Origin: Natronococcus sp. AD-5
Lineage (GTDB): Archaea > Halobacteriota > Halobacteria > Halobacteriales > Natrialbaceae
DNA: 64,000 bases
Reading direction: 5' to 3'
Assembly: GCF_030734285.1 (NCBI RefSeq)
Contig: NZ_CP132294.1
Coordinates: 3,038,001 to 3,102,000, forward strand
Shown here: positions 6,791 to 45,919 of the stretch, one piece after another
How positions within the stretch are numbered: the stretch's first letter is position 1
How the letters are laid out: each line of letters opens with the position of its first letter
Program-made: the position numbers and the translations under genes
Notes under the pieces: generated by a model
What the model was told of the DNA's origin: nothing
The model's input: only the letters and a program-made list of their open reading frames with translations
Database searches by the model: none

Positions 6791-7174
6791 ATGAAGGAGT
6801 ACAAGATGCGCCGCGGTGAGTATCTCGAGGAGCGAATCCCCGACATGGAGGCCACCGTCGAGGACTACTTCGGCCCCATCACGGGAACGCAGGAGTACAA
6901 GGGAAGCGACCTGTTCGTCATCGACGAACCCAGCAATCCCGTCTTCGAGAAAATCGTCGTCGGTACCATCGAGTACTCCGGCAAGAAGAACAAACTCGGC
7001 GTCGAGTTCCACGAACGCGACCCGACCGAACTCGGTCCCGACGAACTCGAGGCCGCCGGCGAGGCCGTCGACGCGAAGAACGACTTCCTGCTCGAGGCGA
7101 CCGGCCGCGACGCCAAGTCCCGCCGCGACTCGATGAAGCGACAGGTCGAGGACGACCCGGATCACGACTTCTAA
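6791..7174 (+). CDS. DUF5611 family haloarchaeal protein
   Basis: This is a 127-residue acidic protein starting MKEYKMRRGEYLEERIPDM, the usual start of this haloarchaeal family. An in-frame ATG at 6752 would add 13 residues (MKRGKHSPVYLQF), which is less family-like. The central part (DLFVIDEPSNPVFEKIVVGTI) looks like a beta-rich fold, and the C-terminus is Lys/Arg/Asp-rich. No catalytic motif, membrane segment or signal is seen. Function unknown. Confidence 0.8.
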   Translation: MKEYKMRRGEYLEERIPDMEATVEDYFGPITGTQEYKGSDLFVIDEPSNPVFEKIVVGTIEYSGKKNKLGVEFHERDPTELGPDELEAAGEAVDAKNDFLLEATGRDAKSRRDSMKRQVEDDPDHDF

Positions 7175-7250
7175 CGACCTTTTGCGCTGCGGGTGCGCCT
7201 CCGGGCACCCTCGGCAAAACGTTAATGAAAAGCGCTCCTCCTTCCCCTCC

Positions 7251-7269
7251 AGCCGCGCATAGCGCGGCT
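7251..7269. repeat. Inverted repeat (8-bp arms)
   Basis: agccgcgc and gcgcggct are separated by ata. The hairpin lies about 80 bases after the DUF5611 stop and may contribute to 3' end formation. Confidence 0.5.
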
Positions 7270-7350
7270 TTCGGGTCAGTCGTCGGCCCGCTCGCTCACT
7301 TCGTTCGCTCGCGGTGAGTGTTGCGCAACGACCTGCCCTTCCCCGGGTCG

Positions 7351-7381
7351 GGCGGCTCACCGCGAATCGCGGTGAGCCGCC
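7351..7381. repeat. Perfect 31-base palindrome
   Basis: The 15-base arm ggcggctcaccgcga is followed by a single a and then its exact reverse complement. It lies in the 300-base gap between the genes at 6791 and 7475. It could be an operator, a very stable RNA hairpin or a terminator. A gcgagcgaacgaagtgagcgag-type haloarchaeal intergenic motif (in reverse, cgctcacttcgttcgctcg) sits just before it. Confidence 0.8.
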
Positions 7382-7474
7382 TTCCCGGCCGCGGTGGGGT
7401 ACGGTGCTGTCGGTTCTCGAGCGAGTCCGAGCGGCCGGCGGCGAGGTTCGAAACGGCTATTGGAGTCACGTCAA

Positions 7475-7675
7475 ATGACACGGGTAATGGATCTCGCAGC
7501 GTTTCTGCTCGCGACGGCGGTCGCACACGTCTGCTTCGCGGTCTTCGTGACTGCACACGCCTTCCTGACCGACCGCGACGCCGGAAACTGGCCCCACCTC
7601 ACGCTCGCGCTGGGGCTCGCGGGAATCGCCGGCTACTTCTTCTACGACGAGACGGGCGACGGCGGATCGATCTAG
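7475..7675 (+). CDS. Small two-helix membrane protein
   Basis: This is a 66-residue protein with two hydrophobic segments: LAAFLLATAVAHVCFAVFV (about residues 6-24) and LTLALGLAGIAGYFFY (about 41-56). A short charged loop (TDRDAGNWPH) joins them. ATG 7475 is used because the upstream in-frame sequence is Arg/Ser-rich and not haloarchaeal-coding-like. The gene is convergent with the symporter gene, whose stop is only three bases away. It resembles small haloarchaeal inner-membrane proteins of unknown function. Confidence 0.6.
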   Translation: MTRVMDLAAFLLATAVAHVCFAVFVTAHAFLTDRDAGNWPHLTLALGLAGIAGYFFYDETGDGGSI

Positions 7676-7678
7676 CGG

Positions 7679-9007
7679 TCAATCGTCCGCGGTGATAGCC
7701 TCGTCGCCGCCCTCCGGAGCCGGCGCGTCGGTCCAGACACCCTCGGTGAAGTCGATCGCGTCGGTCCACTTGCCGACCACCGACGACACCGCGAGGTCGC
7801 CGGTAACGTTGTTCGTCGTCGCGATCCGGCCCAGGATCGGGTCGACGCCGGCGACGAAGCCGACGATCTCGAGGGGCAGGCCGAGCGCGCTCAGGATGAC
7901 CGTGAGCATGATCAGCCCGGCGCCGGGGACGCCGGCGGTGCCGATGCTGATCAGGATCACGGTGAAGAGGACGAGCATCTGCTCGCCGAGGCCCAGCGAG
8001 ATGCCGACCAAGTTAGCGGCAAATACTGCCGTCACCGCCTGCCGGATCGCCGCCCCGTCCATGTTGATCGTCGCGCCCAGCGGAAGTCCGAAGCCGTAGA
8101 CCGACTCGTCGATCTTGAGGTTCTCCTCGGCGTTCGCGACCGTCACCGGAAGGGTGCCGCTCGAGGAGCGGATCGTAAACGCCGTCAGCATGGCGTCTTT
8201 CGCGCCGTTCAGGAAGGCGATCGGCGACTGGCCGAGGATTCCGACCGTCATTACGCCGAGGTAGGTGACGGACATGTGGATCGCGATCCCGATCGCGATG
8301 ACGGCGACGAGCGAGCCCAACTGGACGATCGCCCCGAGCCCTTCGGTACCGATCGCGGCGGCCATCAGCGCGAAGACGCCGACGACGCCGTACTCCATCA
8401 CGCCCCAGACGATCTTGAACAGCGCCTCCGTGCCGGCGTCGACGAACGCGAAGAAGCCGTCGATCGCGTCCTCGATCGACTCCTCGCTCGTCGCCTCGCG
8501 GACCATCGTCAGCGCCAGTCCGAACGCGATCACGAAGAAGATCGTCGCGAGGATGTCGCCCTCGACCATCGCCGCCAGCGGGTTCTCGGGGACGATGCCC
8601 AGCAGGACCTCCGTGACCGTCGGCGGCTCCGCTTCCTGGGCCTCGCCGCCGGTAAACTCGACGGCGCTGCCGGGATCGAACAGGTTCGCGACCGCGAGCC
8701 CGATGACGGCCGCGATGGCCGTCGTCGCGACGTAGAGCCCGACCGTGAGCCCGCCGACCTTCCCCAGCCTCGAGGGGGTAAGCTTCCGCATCCCGCCGAG
8801 TAACGTGAAGACGATGATCGGGATGATCAGCATCTCGAGCAGCCGCAAGAAGAGGTCCCCGAGCGGGCTGAGGACTCCCGCTTGTTCGCCGGCCGTCGCC
8901 CCCAGCGCGGTCCCGAGAACGAACGCGACCGCGATACGATAGATGATCGGCACGGATCGATACCGGCTCCACGCGCGTCGAGGAGCCGACCTGTGTGTCT
9001 CGCTCAT
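7679..9007 (-). CDS. Dicarboxylate/amino acid:cation symporter (DAACS family)
   Basis: This is a 442-residue membrane protein with about eight hydrophobic helices and two re-entrant regions. The hallmark of the GltP/DctA family is visible: the serine-rich hairpin loop TIRSSSGTLPVT and, later, GATINMDGAA (TM7, NMDG motif). GTAGVPGAGLIML is the second hairpin. These residues bind the substrate carboxylates and Na+ or H+. The ATG at 9007 was chosen because the preceding in-frame residues are Arg-rich and antisense-like. It probably imports C4-dicarboxylates, glutamate or aspartate. Confidence 0.92.
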   Translation of the reverse strand: MSETHRSAPRRAWSRYRSVPIIYRIAVAFVLGTALGATAGEQAGVLSPLGDLFLRLLEMLIIPIIVFTLLGGMRKLTPSRLGKVGGLTVGLYVATTAIAAVIGLAVANLFDPGSAVEFTGGEAQEAEPPTVTEVLLGIVPENPLAAMVEGDILATIFFVIAFGLALTMVREATSEESIEDAIDGFFAFVDAGTEALFKIVWGVMEYGVVGVFALMAAAIGTEGLGAIVQLGSLVAVIAIGIAIHMSVTYLGVMTVGILGQSPIAFLNGAKDAMLTAFTIRSSSGTLPVTVANAEENLKIDESVYGFGLPLGATINMDGAAIRQAVTAVFAANLVGISLGLGEQMLVLFTVILISIGTAGVPGAGLIMLTVILSALGLPLEIVGFVAGVDPILGRIATTNNVTGDLAVSSVVGKWTDAIDFTEGVWTDAPAPEGGDEAITADD

Positions 9008-9087
9008 TGACGTATTCACCCTTCGTCGTTCGGCGAACCAATCCGTGTCGATATCGGTGAGACTGGCCGTCTCCTGCGACGGCCGTC

Positions 9088-10653
9088 TCAGGCGAGGAAC
9101 ACGTGTCGCGGCCGATCCTCGAGCACGTCGCGACCGAATTCGACGGCGTCGGCGAAGGCGTCGCTGCGGAAGAACGCCATGGCGTCCTCGCGGGAGTCCC
9201 ACCGGCTGGCGATGAACATGTCGTTTTCGTCTTCGCGGTTGACCAGCAGGTCGCTCTTGCGGTGGCCCTCCATGTCCGCGAGCAGGGACGCGGCGTCGTC
9301 GAAGGCGCCGACGAAGTCCTCGCGGCGGTCGGGCTTGACCGTGTAGAACATCCCCATCGTCCCCCAGGAATCATCGCTCGCGGGGCCGTCGCCACGCTCG
9401 CCATCGGCGCCAGCAGGCGCCCCGTCGTCATCATCACCCGCCTGGCGGACGATCTCGGGCAGGTCGGCGAGGAAGCCGGCCGCCGTGTTCGCGGCGCGCT
9501 CGGTCTCCCAGAGGCTGACGACTGCCGTCTCGCTCTCGGCGCCGTCCGCTCGAGGTTCGTACACCGCCGTCTTCACGTGCGTGTCGTAGTGGTCGAAGTT
9601 CGTCCGCAGTCCCTCGACCTCCTCGAAGAGGTCGTCCGAGTCAGCCGCGGAGTAGAGCACGACGGCGTGGACGTCCTCGCCGTGGGGCTGGCCCGCGTAG
9701 ACGCCCATCTCCTCGAGTTCGCTGCGAACGTCGTCCTCGTCCGCGCCGTTCCCGCCGCCGTGGTGACCGCCGGAGCCGCCGGTATCTCCGTGGTGGTGGC
9801 CGTTCGAGTCGCCGCCGTGGTGCCCGCCCGACTCGGCGTGCGGATGGTCGCCGTGAGCGTCGGCGGCCTGCGGAATCGGCTCGCCGGCGAGGAAGGCGCC
9901 GAGCTGCTCGGACGGGAACCGCCGCGCGGAGAGGAACCGGCCGAACTCCGCGAAACGGGAACTCGAGGGGTCGAAGCGCATCTCGTAGAGCAACTCCTTG
10001 ACGTCGGTCGGATCGTCGGCGAACAGCGTCACGCCCCACTCGAAGTCGTCGAGGCCGATACTGCCGGAGATGATCTGGGTGACGCGGCCGGCGTAGCCCC
10101 GGCCGATGTCGCCGTGACTCGAGAGGTGCTCGGCGCGCTCGTCGAACGGGAGGTCGTACCAGTTGTCCTCCGGGCCGCGCCGTTTGTCCATCGGATAGAA
10201 GCTGACGAACTCGCTGTCGGGGATCTCGGGTTCGAGCCGGGACTCGATGTAGCGTTTCATCCCGGTGTCTTCGACTTCCGAATCGTCGTCGAAGAACTCT
10301 TCGGACATGTAGCCCGAGACCTCCGTTACCGAGAGGTAGGAGTCGGCGCGCTCGGTGAACTCGGCGAGCGCGGTGTGCTCGAACCGGCGCTCGAGGGCGT
10401 CGATCTCGGCGAGCGTCGGCCGCAGGTGGAGGATCAGCAGGTCCGCCTTGTGGCCGAGCACCGCGAACGTCGCCGAGTCGCCCGCCTCGGCGTCGTCGAC
10501 GCGTTCGGCGGCGGACAGATACTCGATTCCCTCCTCGATCGCTCGCGAGCATCGTCGCTCGGGGGCGTCCCGCCAGGCGTCCCAGTCGATCGACCGGAAG
10601 TCGTGCAGGACGTACCAGCCCTCCTCGGTCTGTGGCGGTCTCCGTCGTTCCAT
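9088..10653 (-). CDS. Coproheme decarboxylase/chlorite dismutase-like protein fused to ABM domain (PitA-like)
   Basis: This is a 521-residue fusion. Residues 1 to about 250 form a Cld-family domain. It has FYPMDKRR, whose Tyr matches the catalytic Tyr of Gram-positive coproheme decarboxylase, and SSHGDIGR, whose His matches the proximal heme ligand, followed by the conserved GLDDFEWGVTLFADD. A His/Gly-rich linker follows at about 270-310, with repeated HH and HHH groups. The C-terminal part holds ferredoxin-like antibiotic-biosynthesis-monooxygenase (ABM) sequence. The same architecture is known as PitA in Haloferax. The retained Tyr and His favour heme synthesis (coproheme to heme b) over chlorite dismutation. 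The start is ATG 10653 (MERRRPPQTEEGW). Confidence 0.9.
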   Translation of the reverse strand: MERRRPPQTEEGWYVLHDFRSIDWDAWRDAPERRCSRAIEEGIEYLSAAERVDDAEAGDSATFAVLGHKADLLILHLRPTLAEIDALERRFEHTALAEFTERADSYLSVTEVSGYMSEEFFDDDSEVEDTGMKRYIESRLEPEIPDSEFVSFYPMDKRRGPEDNWYDLPFDERAEHLSSHGDIGRGYAGRVTQIISGSIGLDDFEWGVTLFADDPTDVKELLYEMRFDPSSSRFAEFGRFLSARRFPSEQLGAFLAGEPIPQAADAHGDHPHAESGGHHGGDSNGHHHGDTGGSGGHHGGGNGADEDDVRSELEEMGVYAGQPHGEDVHAVVLYSAADSDDLFEEVEGLRTNFDHYDTHVKTAVYEPRADGAESETAVVSLWETERAANTAAGFLADLPEIVRQAGDDDDGAPAGADGERGDGPASDDSWGTMGMFYTVKPDRREDFVGAFDDAASLLADMEGHRKSDLLVNREDENDMFIASRWDSREDAMAFFRSDAFADAVEFGRDVLEDRPRHVFLA

Positions 10654-10718
10654 GGGCGCGGGTTGGGCCGGCGGCGCCAAGAAGTACCGGGTTTCGCGAC
10701 GAACGGGCGGTCGATCGA

Positions 10719-10736
10719 CCGAAACCCTTTACGTAC
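10719..10736 (+). promoter_or_regulatory. BRE/TATA promoter of the PadR gene
   Basis: ccgaaaccctttacgtac has a BRE-like cgaaa followed by TTTACG, centred about 29 bases before ATG 10759. The intergenic gap to the divergent PitA-like gene is 105 bases, so the region can carry both promoters. Confidence 0.55.
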
Positions 10737-10758
10737 GTCCGTTTGAATTTCGGGCTAC

Positions 10759-11283
10759 ATGCGGAAGAGTGGACCGCCGAAGGGACTGATCGCCTATCTC
10801 GTTCTCGAGCTCCTCGAGGAGAAGCCCCGCTACGGCTACGAGATCTTAAAAGAGATCCGCGAGATCAGCGGCGGCCACTGGGAACCGTCCTACGGTTCGG
10901 TCTACCCGATCCTCTACAAGTTCGAGGAGAAGGGGTGGGCCGAGCGCATCGAGCGCGAGGACGAACCCGACCGGAAGTACTTCGAACTCACCGACGACGG
11001 CCGCGAGGAGCTCGCGGACCGCCGGGAGTCCGGCGCGGAGAAGGCGAACGACTTCGCCGACGTCATCCTCGGCTTCTTCCACGTCTACGCCGCGTTCTCG
11101 ACGGACGACCGCTTCGAGATTCCCGAACAGGACGGAGAGTGGCACTTCAACGAGGAGTTCAGCGCCTGGATCGTCGAACAGGTCGTTCGCCACCACGAGC
11201 ACTACTTCGACACCGACTTCGAGCGCATCGAGGAGACGCCCGAGGAGTTCTACGAGCGCCACGGAATCGACTACGAGGGTTAA
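10759..11283 (+). CDS. PadR family transcriptional regulator
   Basis: The protein has 174 residues. The N-terminal winged helix carries the PadR signature: LVLELLEEKPRYGYEILKEI (residues about 14-33), then WEPSYGSVYPILYKFEEKGW and a DRKYFELTDDGREEL wing. The C-terminal half (about 95-174) is a helical dimerisation or ligand domain of the Vir_act_alpha_C type, acidic and aromatic-rich. PadR proteins are ligand-responsive repressors. It is divergently transcribed from the heme-protein gene at 9088, which is its obvious candidate target besides itself. Confidence 0.88.
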   Translation: MRKSGPPKGLIAYLVLELLEEKPRYGYEILKEIREISGGHWEPSYGSVYPILYKFEEKGWAERIEREDEPDRKYFELTDDGREELADRRESGAEKANDFADVILGFFHVYAAFSTDDRFEIPEQDGEWHFNEEFSAWIVEQVVRHHEHYFDTDFERIEETPEEFYERHGIDYEG

Positions 11284-39446: not shown

Positions 39447-40583
39447 TTAGATCTGCTTCCACGCATCGTCGTCGTCCGGATCCGGAAGGTCGTCGAGGTC
39501 ATCCCGGAGCGTAGAGGCCGCTGGAGAGTCGTCGAATCCGTCGCCGGGGGACGACCCCTCCCCGAGTTCGAGTTCCGGCCAGGCGGTCTTCTCCCACTGG
39601 CCGCGTTCGGCGTAGTAGTAGACGACCTCGCCGTTGACGACCGCGAACAGCCCGCGCTGTTCGTCGTGGACGACGCGCTCGTTCGTATCGATCGCGACGT
39701 CGACGACGTCCTCGAGCGTATCGAGCGCGACGTGGTAGTCGCCGACCCACATCGGGATCGACCCCCGCGAGATCCACTCCGCGTACCGGTGTTCGTGTAT
39801 CGACCGGCGGACCGTCTCGACGTCGATCGGACCGCGCGCCACGACGATCGCGGCACCGGCGAGCGCGAGCGCCGCGACCAGCGAGAACCCGGCGATCACC
39901 GCGACGTTCGGTGATTCCTGGACCTCGATCCGGGCCGTCTGGCTGTGCTCCTTCGAATCGGCCAGCGAGCCCTCGAGCCAGTAGGCCTCCTCGGTTACCT
40001 GGAGGGGAGTCGTCAGCACCTGCTCGTCGCTGTAGGTCCCCGTATCGTACTCGACGACGATCTCGAGAACGGTCGCGATCGTCCCGACGCCGTCGAACTC
40101 CGCCTCGAGTTCCGTCTGCCGGTCGCGGACGGCTTCGACGTCGATCGTCGTCTCGGAGCTGGCGACGCCGTCCTCGACGGCCGGCGACGTTCGCGACTGC
40201 TGTTCGGTTTCCTCCCAGAAGACCGAACCGTCGCGTTCCGCTTCGTAGCGGATGCGCACGTCGTGCGTGACCGTCGTCTCGTCCGTCGGTACGGACGTCT
40301 CGGAGGTGAGCGTCAACCCGGGCGTCGCGGACAGGACGTAGACCGGGTTATCCTCGAGTTCCGTCCCCTCGTCCCAGGGTCCGTCCTCGACGACGATGGC
40401 GCTCGTCGTCGTCTCGGTCGCGACCGATTCCCGGTCGACCTCCTCGGTCGTCGTCGACGTCGGCGGCGTGGCGGCGACCCACCCGGTCGCGACGACCGCG
40501 AGTACCCCGATCACGACGAGCACGACGGTGAGCGTCCGTCCGTGTTCCGCGATCAGCAGATCCAGCCGCGGATGCTCAATCAC
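39447..40583 (-). CDS. DUF5305-type membrane-anchored extracellular protein
   Basis: This is a 378-residue protein. A transmembrane helix near the N-terminus (TLTVVLVVIGVLAVVATGWVAA, about 17-38) is followed by an extracellular beta-rich domain of about 180 residues (YVLSATPGLTLTSETSVPTDE, YEAERDGSVFWEETEQ). A second helix is at about 228-248 (VAVIAGFSLVAALALAGAAIVVA). The cytosolic C-terminal part holds WVGDYHVALDTLEDVVDVAIDTNERVV and an Asp-rich tail. The pattern matches DUF5305, which I know to occur beside archaeal signal peptidases and DUF1102 proteins. It may sense or anchor the secreted fibre components encoded upstream. Confidence 0.85.
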   Translation of the reverse strand: MIEHPRLDLLIAEHGRTLTVVLVVIGVLAVVATGWVAATPPTSTTTEEVDRESVATETTTSAIVVEDGPWDEGTELEDNPVYVLSATPGLTLTSETSVPTDETTVTHDVRIRYEAERDGSVFWEETEQQSRTSPAVEDGVASSETTIDVEAVRDRQTELEAEFDGVGTIATVLEIVVEYDTGTYSDEQVLTTPLQVTEEAYWLEGSLADSKEHSQTARIEVQESPNVAVIAGFSLVAALALAGAAIVVARGPIDVETVRRSIHEHRYAEWISRGSIPMWVGDYHVALDTLEDVVDVAIDTNERVVHDEQRGLFAVVNGEVVYYYAERGQWEKTAWPELELGEGSSPGDGFDDSPAASTLRDDLDDLPDPDDDDAWKQI

Positions 40584-40749
40584 GCGTCTCTCCCCCCGGC
40601 GTCCAATACCGTGCGCTCGAATACCCCCGCCCTCGAGCCGTCTCCGAACGAACAGTTCGGATGGCGGGACAGTTCATACAGACATTCATTATATCGAATG
40701 CTATAACGGTAGTGGTTCCACCCACCCGTTTCGCCGTTGCACGCCCGCT

Positions 40750-41919
40750 TCAGCGCCATCGCTGAAGCTTTCGTCGGATTCGCGTCGAGGAAGAAACGTG
40801 ATCGCCGGCGTGTCGGATCCGAAAGTCTCCCCGTCCGAACAGGAGCAGGATCGTCCCGACGACGGCGCCGACGACGACCGCGTCGACGGCGGCGAGCGCG
40901 ACGAGCGGGTGGACGCCGTGCAGCTGGACGAGCGCCGTCGGCGGAAGTACGGCGAGGTATCGGTACTCACCGACGTGACGCGCGTACTCGCCGGTCGACT
41001 CCGGCGCGGACAGCGACAGCGTCGTCTCCCCGCCGTCGCGAGGGCCGACCGTCTGCCAGCCCGGATCGGCCTCGACGCCGCCGCTCTCGGCCTCGTGGAC
41101 GACGACGATCGGAAGGTAACCCGCGTTGTCGACGGCTCGAGTCAGTTCGGACGCCTCGCCCGGCGCGAGGACCTGCGGATCGTCGGTCGGCGAGTCCGTG
41201 CTCACGACCGCGTACTCGTAGGTTCCCGCGGGGACCACCATCGCCGCCGTCGCGAACCCCACGAGCACGAACAGCACCAGCGCGACCGTCCCCCAGAAGG
41301 CGTAGACGTTCTCCCGAGACGTCGACCGCCTCGTGTCGCGTCTGTGCGGTCCCGCGCAATCGAGGAGAAAACCGGCCCCGAACAGCGCGACGCCCAGCGC
41401 GACCAGCATCGCACCGAGGTTGTCGGCCTCGAGCGCCGTCGTGATGCCGAGGACCGAGGCGAACAGCCCGTACCCCGACTCCATCGCGCCGTGGACGGCC
41501 ACGATTGCGGTTCCGAGGTGCGGAATCGTCACGACGTCGCCGTTCACCTGCCAGGCGGCGGCGACGATCTGGCCCTCCGTCACCGGCGGCTCGCCGCCGT
41601 CCTGGTCGGTGAACGGATTCGCGTCCCCTTTCGTGACGTACCCCGCGTCCGTCTCGCCGACGACCCGGTGGGTCGTGAGCCCGCCGTCGTGAAGCTCTCG
41701 AGCGTCGAACACCACGACGTCTCCCTCGCTCGGCGCGCCGGTTACGGCGCTCGGAATCGCGACGAACCCGTCGCCGGCGTCCATCGTCGGCTCCATGCTC
41801 CCCGTCGCGACGTAGCCGAGCAGGATCGGCTGTCCGAGTACCTGACCGAGAACGAGCAGGAGGACGGCGACCACGACGGCGACGGCTACCCCTCGTTCGA
41901 CGAGCCCCGTCGTAGTCAT
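40750..41919 (-). CDS. Signal peptidase I, archaeal SipW-like type (S26B)
   Basis: This is a 389-residue membrane protease. An N-terminal helix (VAVAVVVAVLLLVLG) precedes the Ser41 box ATGSMEPTM. THRVVG supplies catalytic His84, replacing the bacterial Lys, and KGDANPFTDQD contains the conserved Asp. C-terminal to the protease domain come about four more hydrophobic segments and a beta domain (about 225-325), which is longer than in a housekeeping archaeal SPase. Its place between DUF5305, CARDB and DUF1102-type genes suggests it is dedicated to these exported proteins, as SipW is to TasA. Confidence 0.9.
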   Translation of the reverse strand: MTTTGLVERGVAVAVVVAVLLLVLGQVLGQPILLGYVATGSMEPTMDAGDGFVAIPSAVTGAPSEGDVVVFDARELHDGGLTTHRVVGETDAGYVTKGDANPFTDQDGGEPPVTEGQIVAAAWQVNGDVVTIPHLGTAIVAVHGAMESGYGLFASVLGITTALEADNLGAMLVALGVALFGAGFLLDCAGPHRRDTRRSTSRENVYAFWGTVALVLFVLVGFATAAMVVPAGTYEYAVVSTDSPTDDPQVLAPGEASELTRAVDNAGYLPIVVVHEAESGGVEADPGWQTVGPRDGGETTLSLSAPESTGEYARHVGEYRYLAVLPPTALVQLHGVHPLVALAAVDAVVVGAVVGTILLLFGRGDFRIRHAGDHVSSSTRIRRKLQRWR

Positions 41920-41982
41920 GTGGTATCTCGAGAGAGTATCATGATCAACTACTGGTACGAGTTTCGAAATGAATTCGAACCA

Positions 41983-43116
41983 TTATAAATTCCGCCACCT
42001 GACGGTTCCCGCGGCGAACAGGAGTCCGACCAGTGCGGGTGGTCCGACGACGGCGACCACGGCGGGGTCGAGCTCCCTGTTCAGCACCTCGTATCCGTCG
42101 GATTCGCTGACGCTGACGGTGCCCGCCTCGAGTCCGCTGACGGCGACCGCGTACGTTCCGGGCCCGTCGAACTGCCGCTCGAAGCGTACCGTCCTCGATT
42201 CGTTCGGCTCGAGTTCGACGTACCGATCCTCGACGACGATTCCGCCGACGGCGAGTTCGGCGAGGAACTCGCCGGACGCGTTGCCGGCGTTCTCGATCTC
42301 GGCTGTGACGCGCGTCGATTCGCCCTGGGTGATGGTGTCGTCCTCGAGATCAGCGTCGGTCACGTTGAACTCCGGCGCGGGTTCGCCGGGTGACCGGACG
42401 GCGATCGTCGTCGGGTTGCGGTCGTCGACGCCGACTTCGAACGTGCCGGTCCGCTGCATCGTGCGTTCGAAGGTGACCGTCTCGGTCTCGCCGGCCCCGA
42501 CGGAGACGACCCGATCGTCCACGACGACGCCGTCGACGGTCAGTTGCGCGACCGTCGTTCCGCTCGCGTCGCCGCGATTCTCGTAGGTCGCCCGCACCGT
42601 TAGCGTCTCGCCGGCGTCGACGGTCCGGTCGACGGCCTTCATCTCGACGAGTTCGATGTTAGCGGTCTCGTCATCGTCTTCGTATTCGACGTGAATAGAG
42701 AACGTCTCGCTCGAAGGCGTCTCGGCGTGGGTGTCGATCTTGACTCCGACGCTGGCCGTCTCGCCGACCTCGAGTTCGATCGGGTTCGACGCGTCGACCG
42801 CGCGGTTCGGATAGTCGGCGTAAAAGCTCACGCCTTCGAGGTCCTCTTCGATCCAGACAGAACCCGCCTCGTCGGCGGTGATCGTGAACACGTCGTCGAA
42901 CTCTGAGGCCGCCCGATCGTTTAGGCGGTCAAAGTGCAACTCGAGTTTGCCGTTCGAGACGGTAGCGTACTCGCCGTTCGGGCCATCGTGGGGCTGAAGA
43001 ACGAATTGATCGGACGGTTCGTCAACGGTCGCTGCACCCGTTGGAACTACAATTCCGGTAGTAATCACTCCTGCTGTAAGGGCGAACACAACGATCGGGA
43101 GGAGCGACCGGGGCAT
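41983..43116 (-). CDS. Secreted/anchored protein: DUF1102-like head, two CARDB-like repeats, C-terminal anchor
   Basis: This is a 377-residue exported protein. The signal peptide is PRSLLPIVVFALTAGVITTGIVV. Residues about 35-150 resemble the DUF1102 core (FVLQPHDGPNGEYA, FDDVFTITADEAGSV). Two immunoglobulin-like CARDB-type repeats follow: DAGETLTVRATYENRGDASG and QGESTRVTAEIENAGNASG, each ending with an ETVTFER or RTVRFER strand. A transmembrane segment, VVAVVGPPALVGLLFAAG, lies at the end. It probably displays adhesive or structural repeats at the surface. It lies 63 bases before the signal peptidase gene. Confidence 0.82.
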   Translation of the reverse strand: MPRSLLPIVVFALTAGVITTGIVVPTGAATVDEPSDQFVLQPHDGPNGEYATVSNGKLELHFDRLNDRAASEFDDVFTITADEAGSVWIEEDLEGVSFYADYPNRAVDASNPIELEVGETASVGVKIDTHAETPSSETFSIHVEYEDDDETANIELVEMKAVDRTVDAGETLTVRATYENRGDASGTTVAQLTVDGVVVDDRVVSVGAGETETVTFERTMQRTGTFEVGVDDRNPTTIAVRSPGEPAPEFNVTDADLEDDTITQGESTRVTAEIENAGNASGEFLAELAVGGIVVEDRYVELEPNESRTVRFERQFDGPGTYAVAVSGLEAGTVSVSESDGYEVLNRELDPAVVAVVGPPALVGLLFAAGTVRWRNL

Positions 43117-43147
43117 GGATAAATGCCTACGTATTCGGTGAGAGACG

Positions 43148-43158
43148 TTTTATTTAGA
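43148..43158 (-). promoter_or_regulatory. TATA box of the CARDB-like gene
   Basis: On the minus strand tctaaataaaa lies about 37 bases before ATG 43116, giving a short leader. Confidence 0.45.
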
Positions 43159-43219
43159 CTGTGCGGCCGAGGATATCAAACAATTACTATATATACGATT
43201 GCGGTAGTTACGGCCGGAA

Positions 43220-43765
43220 TTATGGATTTAGGTCATCTTCAGCATATATCGTGATCTCAGTTATATTCTCTAAATCCGTTCCATTTTTAGCATCATTTGT
43301 GAGGTCAATAATTACATTTATATTTTCTGAATCAGCTCCACCATCAGCTTCTAACTGAAGAATCTCAGGAGCATCAGAAGTAGGATTGTTTGTAGTAATT
43401 GATTGACCATTACTGTCTTCGAATTCTAAAATCCCATCGGTTCCGACATCAATAGGTGAATCGTCTATATAGACTCCCACAGAATTATCTCCGTTGTTAG
43501 TAATGGTGAATCCGGGTTGGAATTCGGTCCTTGCGTTCTCATTAACCGAGTGTTGGTCGAATTCAAGCGTATCACCGGTCTGTGATGCAACATTTTGTGT
43601 GCCTGCAGGGTCTAACTGGAGCAAGGCACTACTATCACCAGACGTCTGTAAATTCACTGTACGATCCGCTTCCACACTACTAAACGCGCCCGTGCCAAGT
43701 GCTGCTCCGCCACTCGCGACAATCGTACCCAGTCCAACTAACACGTTGCGTCGATTCATTTTCAT
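43220..43765 (-). CDS. DUF1102/TasA-like secreted protein with SipW-class signal peptide
   Basis: This is a 181-residue protein. The signal (NRRNVLVGLGTIVASGGAALGTGAFSSVEADRTV, shown here only to locate residues 4-37) has the twin-Arg start, hydrophobic core and GAFSS-type end seen in SipW-dependent substrates. The mature part is beta-rich (GFTITNNGDNSVGVYID). ATG 43765 is preceded by ggtgatc, a seven-base match to the 16S anti-SD, at six bases. Another ATG lies at 43801. Codon and base composition are much more AT-rich than neighbours. It is a likely main subunit of a surface fibre; this is inference. Confidence 0.8.
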   Translation of the reverse strand: MKMNRRNVLVGLGTIVASGGAALGTGAFSSVEADRTVNLQTSGDSSALLQLDPAGTQNVASQTGDTLEFDQHSVNENARTEFQPGFTITNNGDNSVGVYIDDSPIDVGTDGILEFEDSNGQSITTNNPTSDAPEILQLEADGGADSENINVIIDLTNDAKNGTDLENITEITIYAEDDLNP

Positions 43766-43820
43766 CGTTGAGATCACCGTATTGGTCCGCGCGACGACCA
43801 TCTTCTGCGGGCCGCCGGGC

Positions 43821-43836
43821 GACTCTTATCGCTACC
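43821..43836 (-). promoter_or_regulatory. TATA-like box of the DUF1102 gene
   Basis: On the minus strand gtagcgataagagtc would place transcription start near 43800. This leaves a leader of about 35 bases that includes the ggtgatc ribosome binding site at 43772-43778. Confidence 0.4.
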
Positions 43837-43887
43837 CTACCACTCTACACACTTTGTATTAGGTTGCCAGAATACTTTCACGACTAA

Positions 43888-43916
43888 CAATACTACCGTT
43901 CAAAACAGTATTGAAC
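43888..43916. repeat. Overlapping inverted repeats (alternative hairpins)
   Basis: caatact (43888-43894) pairs with agtattg (43907-43913). In addition gttcaa (43899-43904) pairs with ttgaac (43911-43916). The two hairpins exclude one another. Confidence 0.4.
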
Positions 43917-44114
43917 AAACGAAACACCCCCTCCCGTGAAGGAGGAGAAGACTGGAAAGAAAGCAATTCGCCGTCAAACCCAATCCTGGAAAGCCTTGAG
44001 AAAGCATAATAAAATTAGCACATGAATTTCAGTAGCGTCCAGACTAGCCAGTAGGCGTTTCAGTCGGTATCGTTCGTCGATCGTTAGACGACTCTCAAAC
44101 CAAGGTTCCGGATG

Positions 44115-44327
44115 TTAGTTGAAGAATCGTAGCAACCGTTCTGATTGACGAAGGTGGCGAATCAGCCAATGTAGGTAGTTTGGATAGTATTCAGATGGCG
44201 GATAAGCACCCTGGATGCGAGGGGTATCGATGTCGATTTCTACAACGTCGTACTGCGAGATAGAACTAGTTCGGGAAACCGTCGTGAGTCCAAAATCAGG
44301 CGACTTAGTACCACGCCGCGGCGGCAA
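44115..44327 (-). pseudogene. Possible gene remnant (70 codons)
   Basis: The frame ends QGAYPPSEYYPNYLHWLIR followed by HLRQSERLLRFFN. The aromatic/Arg-rich tail does not resemble antisense noise and could be the C-terminus of a lost gene. The start region has no promoter or ribosome site and I recognise no family. Confidence 0.2.
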
Positions 44328-44330
44328 GGA

Positions 44331-44340
44331 CTATATATCA
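44331..44340 (+). promoter_or_regulatory. TATA box of the DUF7344 regulator unit
   Basis: actatatatc lies 35-44 bases before ATG 44375. The resulting short leader contains aaggag at 44363-44368 as a Shine-Dalgarno. Confidence 0.6.
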
Positions 44341-44374
44341 GTAATGCATATTTTCATTCTAGCAAGGAGTTTTG

Positions 44375-44911
44375 ATGACGACACAGATAGGGGATGAGCT
44401 AGATCAGGGAGAGATTTTCGATCTTCTGAGCAATCATCGCCGTCGGTACGCGATTCACTACTGTAAGCGCGAAAACGAGCCCGTCGAACTCGGGGACCTG
44501 GCAGAACACGTCGCCGCCTGGGAACTCGACAAAGAAATACAGGAACTCACCTCGGCAGAGCGAAAGCGGGTCTACACCTCACTACAGCAGACACACCTGC
44601 CGACGCTCGAGAAGGCAGATATGGTCAGGTTCGACAACCGGACGATCGAACTCACTGATCAAGCGACCGACCTCGAGGTTTACCTCGACGTAGTTCCCAG
44701 CGACTCGATCCCGTGGGGAACGTACTACCTCGGCCTCGCCGCCGTTGCGACGGTCGTAATGGCGGGACTCTGGCTTGAGTGGGTCCCGACGGAAACAGTT
44801 TCCGAACTTGGGTGGGCAACGCTCGTGGTCGCCCTGTTCGCAGTCTCCGCGGTCGTTCACGTCGCGCAAAACCAGCAACTACGACTCGGCGAGATGGAAC
44901 GACCCCCGTAA
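44375..44911 (+). CDS. Membrane-anchored winged-helix regulator (DUF7344-like)
   Basis: This is a 178-residue protein. Residues about 12-95 form a winged helix: EIFDLLSNHRRRYAIHYCK, then LGDLAEHVAAWE and VYTSLQQTHLPTLEKADMV. The C-terminal part has two transmembrane helices (TYYLGLAAVATVVMAGLWLEW and LGWATLVVALFAVSAVVHV). A DNA-binding domain tied to the membrane next to a fibre locus suggests it senses export state and controls the locus; that is inference. The next gene starts three bases after its stop, so they share a transcript. Confidence 0.82.
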   Translation: MTTQIGDELDQGEIFDLLSNHRRRYAIHYCKRENEPVELGDLAEHVAAWELDKEIQELTSAERKRVYTSLQQTHLPTLEKADMVRFDNRTIELTDQATDLEVYLDVVPSDSIPWGTYYLGLAAVATVVMAGLWLEWVPTETVSELGWATLVVALFAVSAVVHVAQNQQLRLGEMERPP

Positions 44912-44914
44912 TAT

Positions 44915-45919
44915 ATGAACACATTGAGCAAGATTGCGATTCTGATCATCGTTTCAGGAGCGGTACTGCTTGCGGTACCTGCGTTCGGATTCACTTCATT
45001 GGTCGCCGATCGCGGAGTGAGTGTTGCTACTGCGGATAACGCGAACGCGCTTCTCGAGATCGAAGAGACGGGTGAGACGCCCGATAACCAGAACGATGTC
45101 GACGTAATCGAGATCACGAACAGCGCCGAACAAGACTTTGAAACGTTGGCCACCAACGTAACTCTCGACGATTCGGATGGCGCCTTAGCGATAAGTAACG
45201 ATTTCGCAACGAGCCTCAACGATACCGAGACGACGGGACTAGAATTGACGTGTGAAGGAGGCGGTAGCGGAACTGCAACGGTGACAATTGAGGCTGAAGC
45301 CATCGGGCCAACTATCCAAATTCAAAACGCTAACACCAGTTACACGTTTGATTACAGTTGCACTGGCGGCGGTAGCGGCCCGACGGCAGACGCTGGTGGA
45401 CCATACGAGGTTTACGAAGATAACGAAGTCGAATTGGACGGGACCGAATCTACAACTAGTACAGGTAATATTGACAGCTATAACTGGCAGATTACAAGCG
45501 GCGATGGTCAGTTGACGGGCGCGACCACTGCAACGCCGACGTACATCGCACCAAACAACGTTTCTGAGACTACTGATATGGAAGTAGAACTGACGGTATC
45601 CGACAACAGCGGTAACTCCGATAGCGATACTGCGACGATCACGGTGCGAACGGTAGACAACAACGAAAATAACCCGCCGATAGCTGATTTCAGTTACGAT
45701 TACAATGAGAATTCGGAGAAGGCAGATCTAGACGCCTCTTCATCGAGCGATCCAGACGGAGCGATTTCGGTCTATGAGTGGGACATCGGTAATAATGGAA
45801 CGATCGACGAAAAGGGTCAAGAAGTAAACGGCGTGATTGTAAGCCCTGGAACAGAGGTCAAACTCATTGTCACTGATGATGATGGGGCGACTGACAGTAT
45901 AACCAAAATAATTGATTGA
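44915..45919 (+). CDS. Exported DUF1102-like protein with C-terminal PKD-type domain(s)
   Basis: This is a 334-residue protein. Its N-terminal hydrophobic segment (IAILIIVSGAVLLAVPAFGF) is followed directly by FTSLVADRGVSVATADNANALLEIE. That stretch aligns by eye with FSSVEADRTVNL ... ALLQLDP of the 43220 protein. The DUF1102-like part ends near residue 150. Beta-sandwich PKD-like domains follow: GPTADAGGPYEVYEDNEVELDGTES and PPIADFSYDYNENSEKADLDAS ... DDDGATDSI. There is no C-terminal anchor. It is probably a minor fibre or adhesin subunit. Its codon use is AT-richer than flanking genes. Confidence 0.8.
   Translation: MNTLSKIAILIIVSGAVLLAVPAFGFTSLVADRGVSVATADNANALLEIEETGETPDNQNDVDVIEITNSAEQDFETLATNVTLDDSDGALAISNDFATSLNDTETTGLELTCEGGGSGTATVTIEAEAIGPTIQIQNANTSYTFDYSCTGGGSGPTADAGGPYEVYEDNEVELDGTESTTSTGNIDSYNWQITSGDGQLTGATTATPTYIAPNNVSETTDMEVELTVSDNSGNSDSDTATITVRTVDNNENNPPIADFSYDYNENSEKADLDASSSSDPDGAISVYEWDIGNNGTIDEKGQEVNGVIVSPGTEVKLIVTDDDGATDSITKIID

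Follow-up and report, generated by a model that had tools for sequence, protein, structure and literature searches.

What kind of surface structure is encoded by the six genes at positions 39447-45919 of the window, by which we mean the whole 64,000-nucleotide stretch of Natronococcus sp. AD-5 analysed here? A sequence-only reading had described an export-and-filament locus with one main and two related minor subunits and a dedicated SipW-type peptidase, which our analysis upholds. It had also framed the locus as SipW/TasA-like, and of this the SipW-type peptidase and the filament stand, but the proper name of the system is another. We are highly confident that these genes form a pilus locus of the Natrinema J7-2 type, i.e., a locus of the Tat-fimbriae (tafi), thin surface filaments with components exported by twin-arginine translocation (Tat) (Galeva et al. 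2025, iScience 28:111793, as cited in PMC12687288). This identity rests on gene content, subunit homology, the Tat motif, catalytic residues, synteny, and a fold match. The locus belongs to a haloarchaeal pilus that has already been described, and it is neither a new system nor a direct TasA locus.

The main subunit is encoded at 43220, and the AlphaFold2 model of its mature form has a mean predicted local distance difference test score (pLDDT) of 77.9. Foldseek (E 1.9e-4) and VIA (Z 9.4, 2.9 Å over 128 residues, with the next rows at Z 7.3) both rank the same PDB entry as the best match of this model, namely 9P0A, 'Structure of Natrinema sp. J7-2 Tafi pilus'. The sequence profile of the protein also matches the 9P0A chain (E 1.9e-17). 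One of the loci that we compared, L071 of genome G092, encodes a pilin identical to 9P0A over 186/186 matched residues and is arranged as in the window, with the DUF5305, peptidase, CARDB, and pilin genes on one strand and the regulator and a TafC-like gene on the other. The window and the Natrinema sp. J7-2 Tafi pilus therefore have in common a homologous pilin (27% identity in the Foldseek alignment), its fold, and, at L071, the order of the six genes. They differ in that the window pilin has diverged in sequence and has a GC content at third codon positions (GC3) of 0.335, versus 0.80-0.88 in its operon neighbours.

All six open reading frames were confirmed within 39447-45919, and we list them here together with the predicted N-terminal arm of the main pilin:

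39447..40583, minus strand: DUF5305 membrane protein (PF17231, E 4e-48), with hydrophobic segments 7-42 and 223-255 and a C-terminal tail.
40750..41919, minus strand: signal peptidase I of the endoplasmic reticulum (ER)/SipW type (TIGR02228 above cut-off; S41, H84, D99/D105).
41983..43116, minus strand: CARDB minor subunit (CARDB, E 1e-14), with a Sec-type signal and a pilin-homologous N-domain.
43220..43765, minus strand: main pilin, TafE/TafA-like, 181 aa from the likely start, with a Tat signal peptide and the fold match to 9P0A.
43646..43684, minus strand: N-terminal arm of the main pilin, predicted to act as a donor strand, FSSVEADRTVNLQ (residues 1-13 of the mature protein; from conservation and low pLDDT, with the role by analogy with TasA).
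44372..44911, plus strand: DUF7344 winged-helix regulator (PF24035, E 3e-29), with two C-terminal membrane segments.
44915..45919, plus strand: TafC-like minor or tip subunit (TafC model; PKD domains), with a Sec signal, a pilin-like N-domain, and two PKD domains.

On the minus strand, transcription runs from the pilin through the CARDB protein and the peptidase to the DUF5305 protein. The plus strand carries, divergently, the DUF7344 regulator and, 3 bp downstream, the gene of the PKD protein.

The sequence-only reading had overlooked the twin-arginine signal of the main pilin, MKMNRRNVLVGLG (RRNVLVGLG). The likely start codon is M13 (43765), since relatives begin with MRMNRR. Of the 97 members of the pilin family, 90 have the arginine pair ahead of the point where the mature protein begins. 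The pair is rare in the TafC-like proteins (3/59 of those with the F-motif), and none of the CARDB proteins in the aligned set has a convincing Tat signal. Among the three exported proteins of the locus only the pilin has a Tat signal, and those encoded at 41983 and 44915 have ordinary Sec-type ones. Judged by its signal, the main subunit is thus a predicted Tat substrate.

These three exported proteins share a common core, as the sequence-only reading had claimed. We built a profile (A1) from 50 homologues of the mature pilin, and it found exactly three places at E ≤ 1e-4 in the 5.17 Mb genome, all in these three proteins: the pilin itself (3e-36), the N-domain of the CARDB protein (1.4e-8, at 42679-42972), and the N-terminus of the PKD protein (1.7e-5). 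Profile-profile comparisons with hhalign also linked the pilin/TafE-like family to the CARDB N-domain (98.2-98.6%, E 4e-14 to 1e-15) and to the TafC-like family (95.3%, E 2e-8). Since the genome search and the profile-profile comparison agree, the motifs shared by these proteins reflect homology and not chance. This holds for the earlier FSS/FTS-xx-ADR-x-V ... ALLxL motif, which is real and conserved (FSSVEADRTV...ALLQL in the pilin, FTSLVADRGV...ALLEI in the PKD protein; the 50 pilin homologues all keep F1, A6, R8, and D17, in the numbering of the mature protein), and for the proposed link between FDDVFTIT of 41983 and GFTITN of 43220, which hhalign showed to be true homology.

The description of this core as DUF1102-like fared less simply. 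PF06510 (DUF1102) has no direct match to any protein of the window at E ≤ 1 and none in the genome, but intermediates restore the link. In another archaeal family, DUF1102 proteins (PF06510 E 1e-41 to 1e-51) match the pilin profile with E values down to 3.5e-15, and 13 other Halobacteria genomes have matches to PF06510. Because some halobacterial relatives thus pass the DUF1102 cut-off, the TafE-like and DUF1102 families form one superfamily.

The remaining components were also largely as first described. The signal peptidase at 40750 scores 54.8 bits, above the cut-off, with TIGR02228 (archaeal signal peptidase I) and 32 bits, below it, with the SipW model, and S41, H84, D99, and D105 are each kept in at least 93% of the 57 locus peptidases. 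Its hydrophobic segments (1-39, 162-191, 203-234, and 333-366) include those of a C-terminal extension, in which additional membrane segments enclose some 100 residues (~232-332); according to hhalign this segment is related neither to the pilins nor to DUF5305. The extension could possibly serve as an assembly platform. The DUF5305-type membrane protein was correctly named, and its two hydrophobic segments flank a predicted extracytoplasmic domain for which hhalign gave no homology to pilins. The membrane-anchored winged-helix regulator proved to be a DUF7344 protein with hydrophobic segments at residues 117-140 and 142-167. Finally, the CARDB-like and PKD-type modules are present as two stretches each, in 41983 and 44915 respectively. 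The protein encoded at 41983 combines a TafE/DUF1102-like N-domain with its two CARDB domains and a membrane helix at the C-terminus (348-373), a further hydrophobic segment being 1-31. In the fold search with its model, CARDB crystal structures lead the VIA list and hits are to CARDB/Ig folds throughout, which masks the N-domain.

The gene set recurs across haloarchaea, as had been anticipated. Two outcomes that would have refuted the sequence-only reading thus did not occur, since the neighbourhood is conserved and the pilin has the fold of a solved pilus. We compared 62 loci, 60 of them from other genomes and most of about 20 kb; having been picked for their pilin matches, they do not sample genomes at random. 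Homologues of the peptidase are found in 57/62 loci, and those of DUF5305 and of the DUF7344 regulator in 56/62 each. The five core families (TafE, TafC, peptidase, DUF5305, and regulator) occur together in 48 of the 59 neighbourhoods longer than 17 kb. A genome-wide survey, independent of the choice of loci, identified TafE-like genes in 233 and DUF5305 in 239 of 292 Halobacteria genomes, and of the 20 genomes listed as TafE-negative, 16 lack DUF5305 too. The canonical TafA has named relatives in Haloarcula, Haloferax, Halorubrum, and Natrinema, and the named taf loci of Haloarcula and Haloferax hold the same peptidase, DUF5305, and DUF7344 genes. These loci share with the window a TafE/TafA-like Tat pilin, a TafC-like N-domain, a SipW-type peptidase, DUF5305, and the DUF7344 regulator. 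In the maximum-likelihood tree of the locus peptidases, some inner forks of which are below a strict support threshold, the window groups with CARDB-type loci of the same family, including L071, and apart from the Haloarcula taf loci.

Some observations weigh against the tafi assignment. The NCBIfam models TafE, TafA, and TafC, which stand for fimbrial proteins, match proteins of the window, but with scores below their curated cut-offs: the pilin reaches 132.9 bits with TafE (cut-off 155) and 48.7 with TafA (cut-off 190), and the N-terminus of the PKD-bearing protein reaches 39.7 bits with TafC over residues 8-136, far below the cut-off of 410. By NCBI's rule, the proteins encoded at 43220 and 44915 are therefore not equivalogs of the Haloarcula proteins. 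Unlike the taf loci of Haloarcula and Haloferax, the window also has no distinct TafA, and its TafC-like protein carries PKD domains. The canonical Haloarcula loci lack the CARDB gene, as do two loci from the genus of the window (L050 and L073), which makes the CARDB protein an optional part that is not essential to the machine. On the other hand, the exact 9P0A pilin also falls under the cut-offs (TafE 74.2, TafA 53), which shows that these mark a Haloarcula-type subgroup and not the whole kind.

Could the window instead hold a true archaeal tapA-sipW-tasA or AbpA-type locus, in which a direct homologue of TasA or of the bundling pili makes bundled biofilm fibres? The idea has some appeal: the SipW-type peptidase adjoins its predicted substrates, AbpA (7UEG) is the second Foldseek match of the pilin model (E 0.019; Z 6.8 over 116 residues), and the predicted cut site of the pilin has an aromatic residue at +1/+2, as does TasA, where a Phe stands at +2 of the cut (PMC10269814). 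TasA also polymerises by an N-terminal donor strand (PMC9674648). The resemblance to Bacillus tapA-sipW-tasA and to the Pyrobaculum AbpA pili indeed comprises a SipW-type peptidase, beta-sandwich subunits, and a probable N-terminal donor strand. However, the window has no sequence match to these systems (neither TasA nor AbpA is among the PDB sequence-profile matches at E ≤ 10, a search that remote kin can escape), and unlike them it features Tat export and CARDB, DUF5305, and DUF7344 genes. The main subunit is, by its signal, Tat- and not Sec-dependent. The comparison of folds, from which kinship with TasA and AbpA had been expected, gave the fold of the solved 9P0A pilus; unrelated Ig, PapD, and MSP-like folds reach Z 6.0-7.3, which leaves AbpA level with the background, and TasA appears in neither the Foldseek nor the VIA list. 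We rejected direct identity with TasA/AbpA, the matches being weaker than those to tafi, and regard a locus of this kind as unlikely. The data are suggestive of kinship to AbpA; the analogy in mechanism is good, and membership of the TasA/AbpA group is unproven.

A different doubt is whether there is a filament at all. CARDB and PKD are generic adhesive modules, and the two proteins that bear them have Sec signals, one of them also being membrane-anchored, so that the locus might be a cassette for the maturation of three secreted surface or adhesive proteins acting singly on the S-layer. The nearest solved relative of the main protein is a pilus subunit, though, and precisely this pilin is found encoded among the same six genes at another locus, which makes such a cassette very improbable. 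If there is a filament, the proteins encoded at 41983 and 44915 might still be alternative fibre subunits that each polymerise alone, instead of base and tip of one pilus. Both have pilin-like N-domains, but the membrane helix retained at the C-terminus of 41983 and the bulky PKD domains of 44915 speak against it, and TafE genes are often multiplied in loci, whereas the CARDB gene is not. We think this improbable.

We therefore return to a single tafi pilus, and propose how it may be assembled. The pilin would fold in the cytoplasm and leave through the Tat pore, after which the SipW-type peptidase of its operon would cut it at the GTGA/FSS junction, before the Phe or one residue earlier. The freed arm, FSSVEADRxV, would then insert as a donor strand into the incomplete beta-sandwich of the next subunit, so that the filament would grow without an ATPase. 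The first 13 residues of the mature protein are the most conserved 13-residue window of the pilin family (mean frequency of the top residue 0.70, versus 0.36 elsewhere), and yet this N-terminal arm has low pLDDT and is poorly placed in the AlphaFold2 monomer model. By analogy, a terminus that is conserved yet apparently disordered is what one would expect of a donor strand. Chain C of 9P0A is ordered over 188 residues, and the match to it runs to residue 215, from which we infer that the model begins near residue 28, the Phe of GTGA/FSS. The CARDB protein would cap or anchor the base, given its C-terminal membrane helix, and the PKD protein would be the tip or an adhesive subunit. DUF5305 may act as a membrane assembly or anchoring factor, and the DUF7344 membrane winged-helix protein may regulate the divergent operons. 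We hold donor-strand assembly and the assignment of base and tip to be fairly probable.

The surroundings of these genes offer some further observations. The locus is bordered by unremarkable genes, which encode NAD synthase, a small helix-turn-helix protein, and EMC6-like and ABC ATPase-like proteins. The divergent operons are separated by a 570-bp gap (43802-44371) with several short open frames, in which Pfam and plasmid searches gave no usable match to a hidden pilin remnant. In other loci, additional pilin-like genes or long CARDB proteins are frequently encoded at this place. Besides the pilin gene, that of the PKD subunit has a GC3 (0.534) below those of the CARDB, peptidase, and DUF5305 genes, and the same trend is seen across some 60 loci, where the mean GC3 is 0.62-0.64 for TafE and TafC genes and 0.80 for the other three. 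The low values of these exposed subunits relative to their operon neighbours suggest exchange or rapid turnover. One of the compared loci (L070, 5628-12539) has seven TafE-like genes in a run, suggesting pilin switching or mixed filaments. The genome of Natronococcus sp. AD-5 itself encodes a second, more diverged cassette (locus L009, C1:3,894,000-3,912,000, positions 6977-10781), with a peptidase (6977-8125), a Tat-signal TafE-like protein (8242-8871), a TafC-like protein of 174 aa (9016-9540), and DUF5305 (9537-10781). The organism may thus make two kinds of filament.

The DUF1102 relatives place the system in a broader context. The pilin profile finds proteins of 170-186 aa, assigned by Pfam to DUF1102, in a distant archaeal family (f15, genomes of 1.4-2.2 Mb). 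Their loci encode a homologous peptidase (343-354 aa, E 1e-41 to 3e-51) similar in length to the window-type peptidases, a DUF7344 regulator in 4/6 cases (E 1e-20 to 8e-23), and a DUF5305-like protein in two (E 3e-7, 2e-4). In two of them (L139 and L141), the gene immediately upstream of the peptidase encodes a minor DUF1102-type protein that matches the CARDB profile; this is the place of the CARDB gene in the window. These loci and the window hence share homologous pilins, a SipW-type peptidase with its C-terminal extension, and the order pilin, minor pilin, peptidase, and, further on, DUF5305. The f15 loci differ in having Sec-type pilins, several of them in tandem, and mostly no CARDB repeats. 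No arginine pair occurs near the N-terminus of 20 of the 21 f15 pilin-like proteins, and the last one starts with MRRLICG without a proper Tat motif. The simplest reading suggests that an older pilus of Sec type was adapted to Tat export in haloarchaea. We lean towards the view that tafi is the Tat-adapted haloarchaeal branch of an older archaeal system that depends on Sec elsewhere. This system would be defined by pilins of the DUF1102/TafE kind together with DUF5305, a membrane regulator of family DUF7344, and a SipW-type peptidase that bears the C-terminal extension, and the CARDB protein would have arisen as its base anchor from a minor DUF1102 pilin, by acquisition of CARDB repeats and a membrane helix. 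The literature that we searched, which did not reach the key papers, contained no statement of a Sec-to-Tat origin, and we make no claim of priority.

In summary, these results tie DUF1102, DUF5305, and DUF7344 to one conserved pilus locus and add a likely anchor, the CARDB protein, and a likely tip, the PKD protein, to the parts list of tafi. The presence of the same gene set with Sec-type pilins in a distant archaeal family suggests for the system a greater age and a wider range than the name Tat-fimbriae conveys. Whether haloarchaea switched an existing pilus from Sec to Tat, and why, can now be tested.

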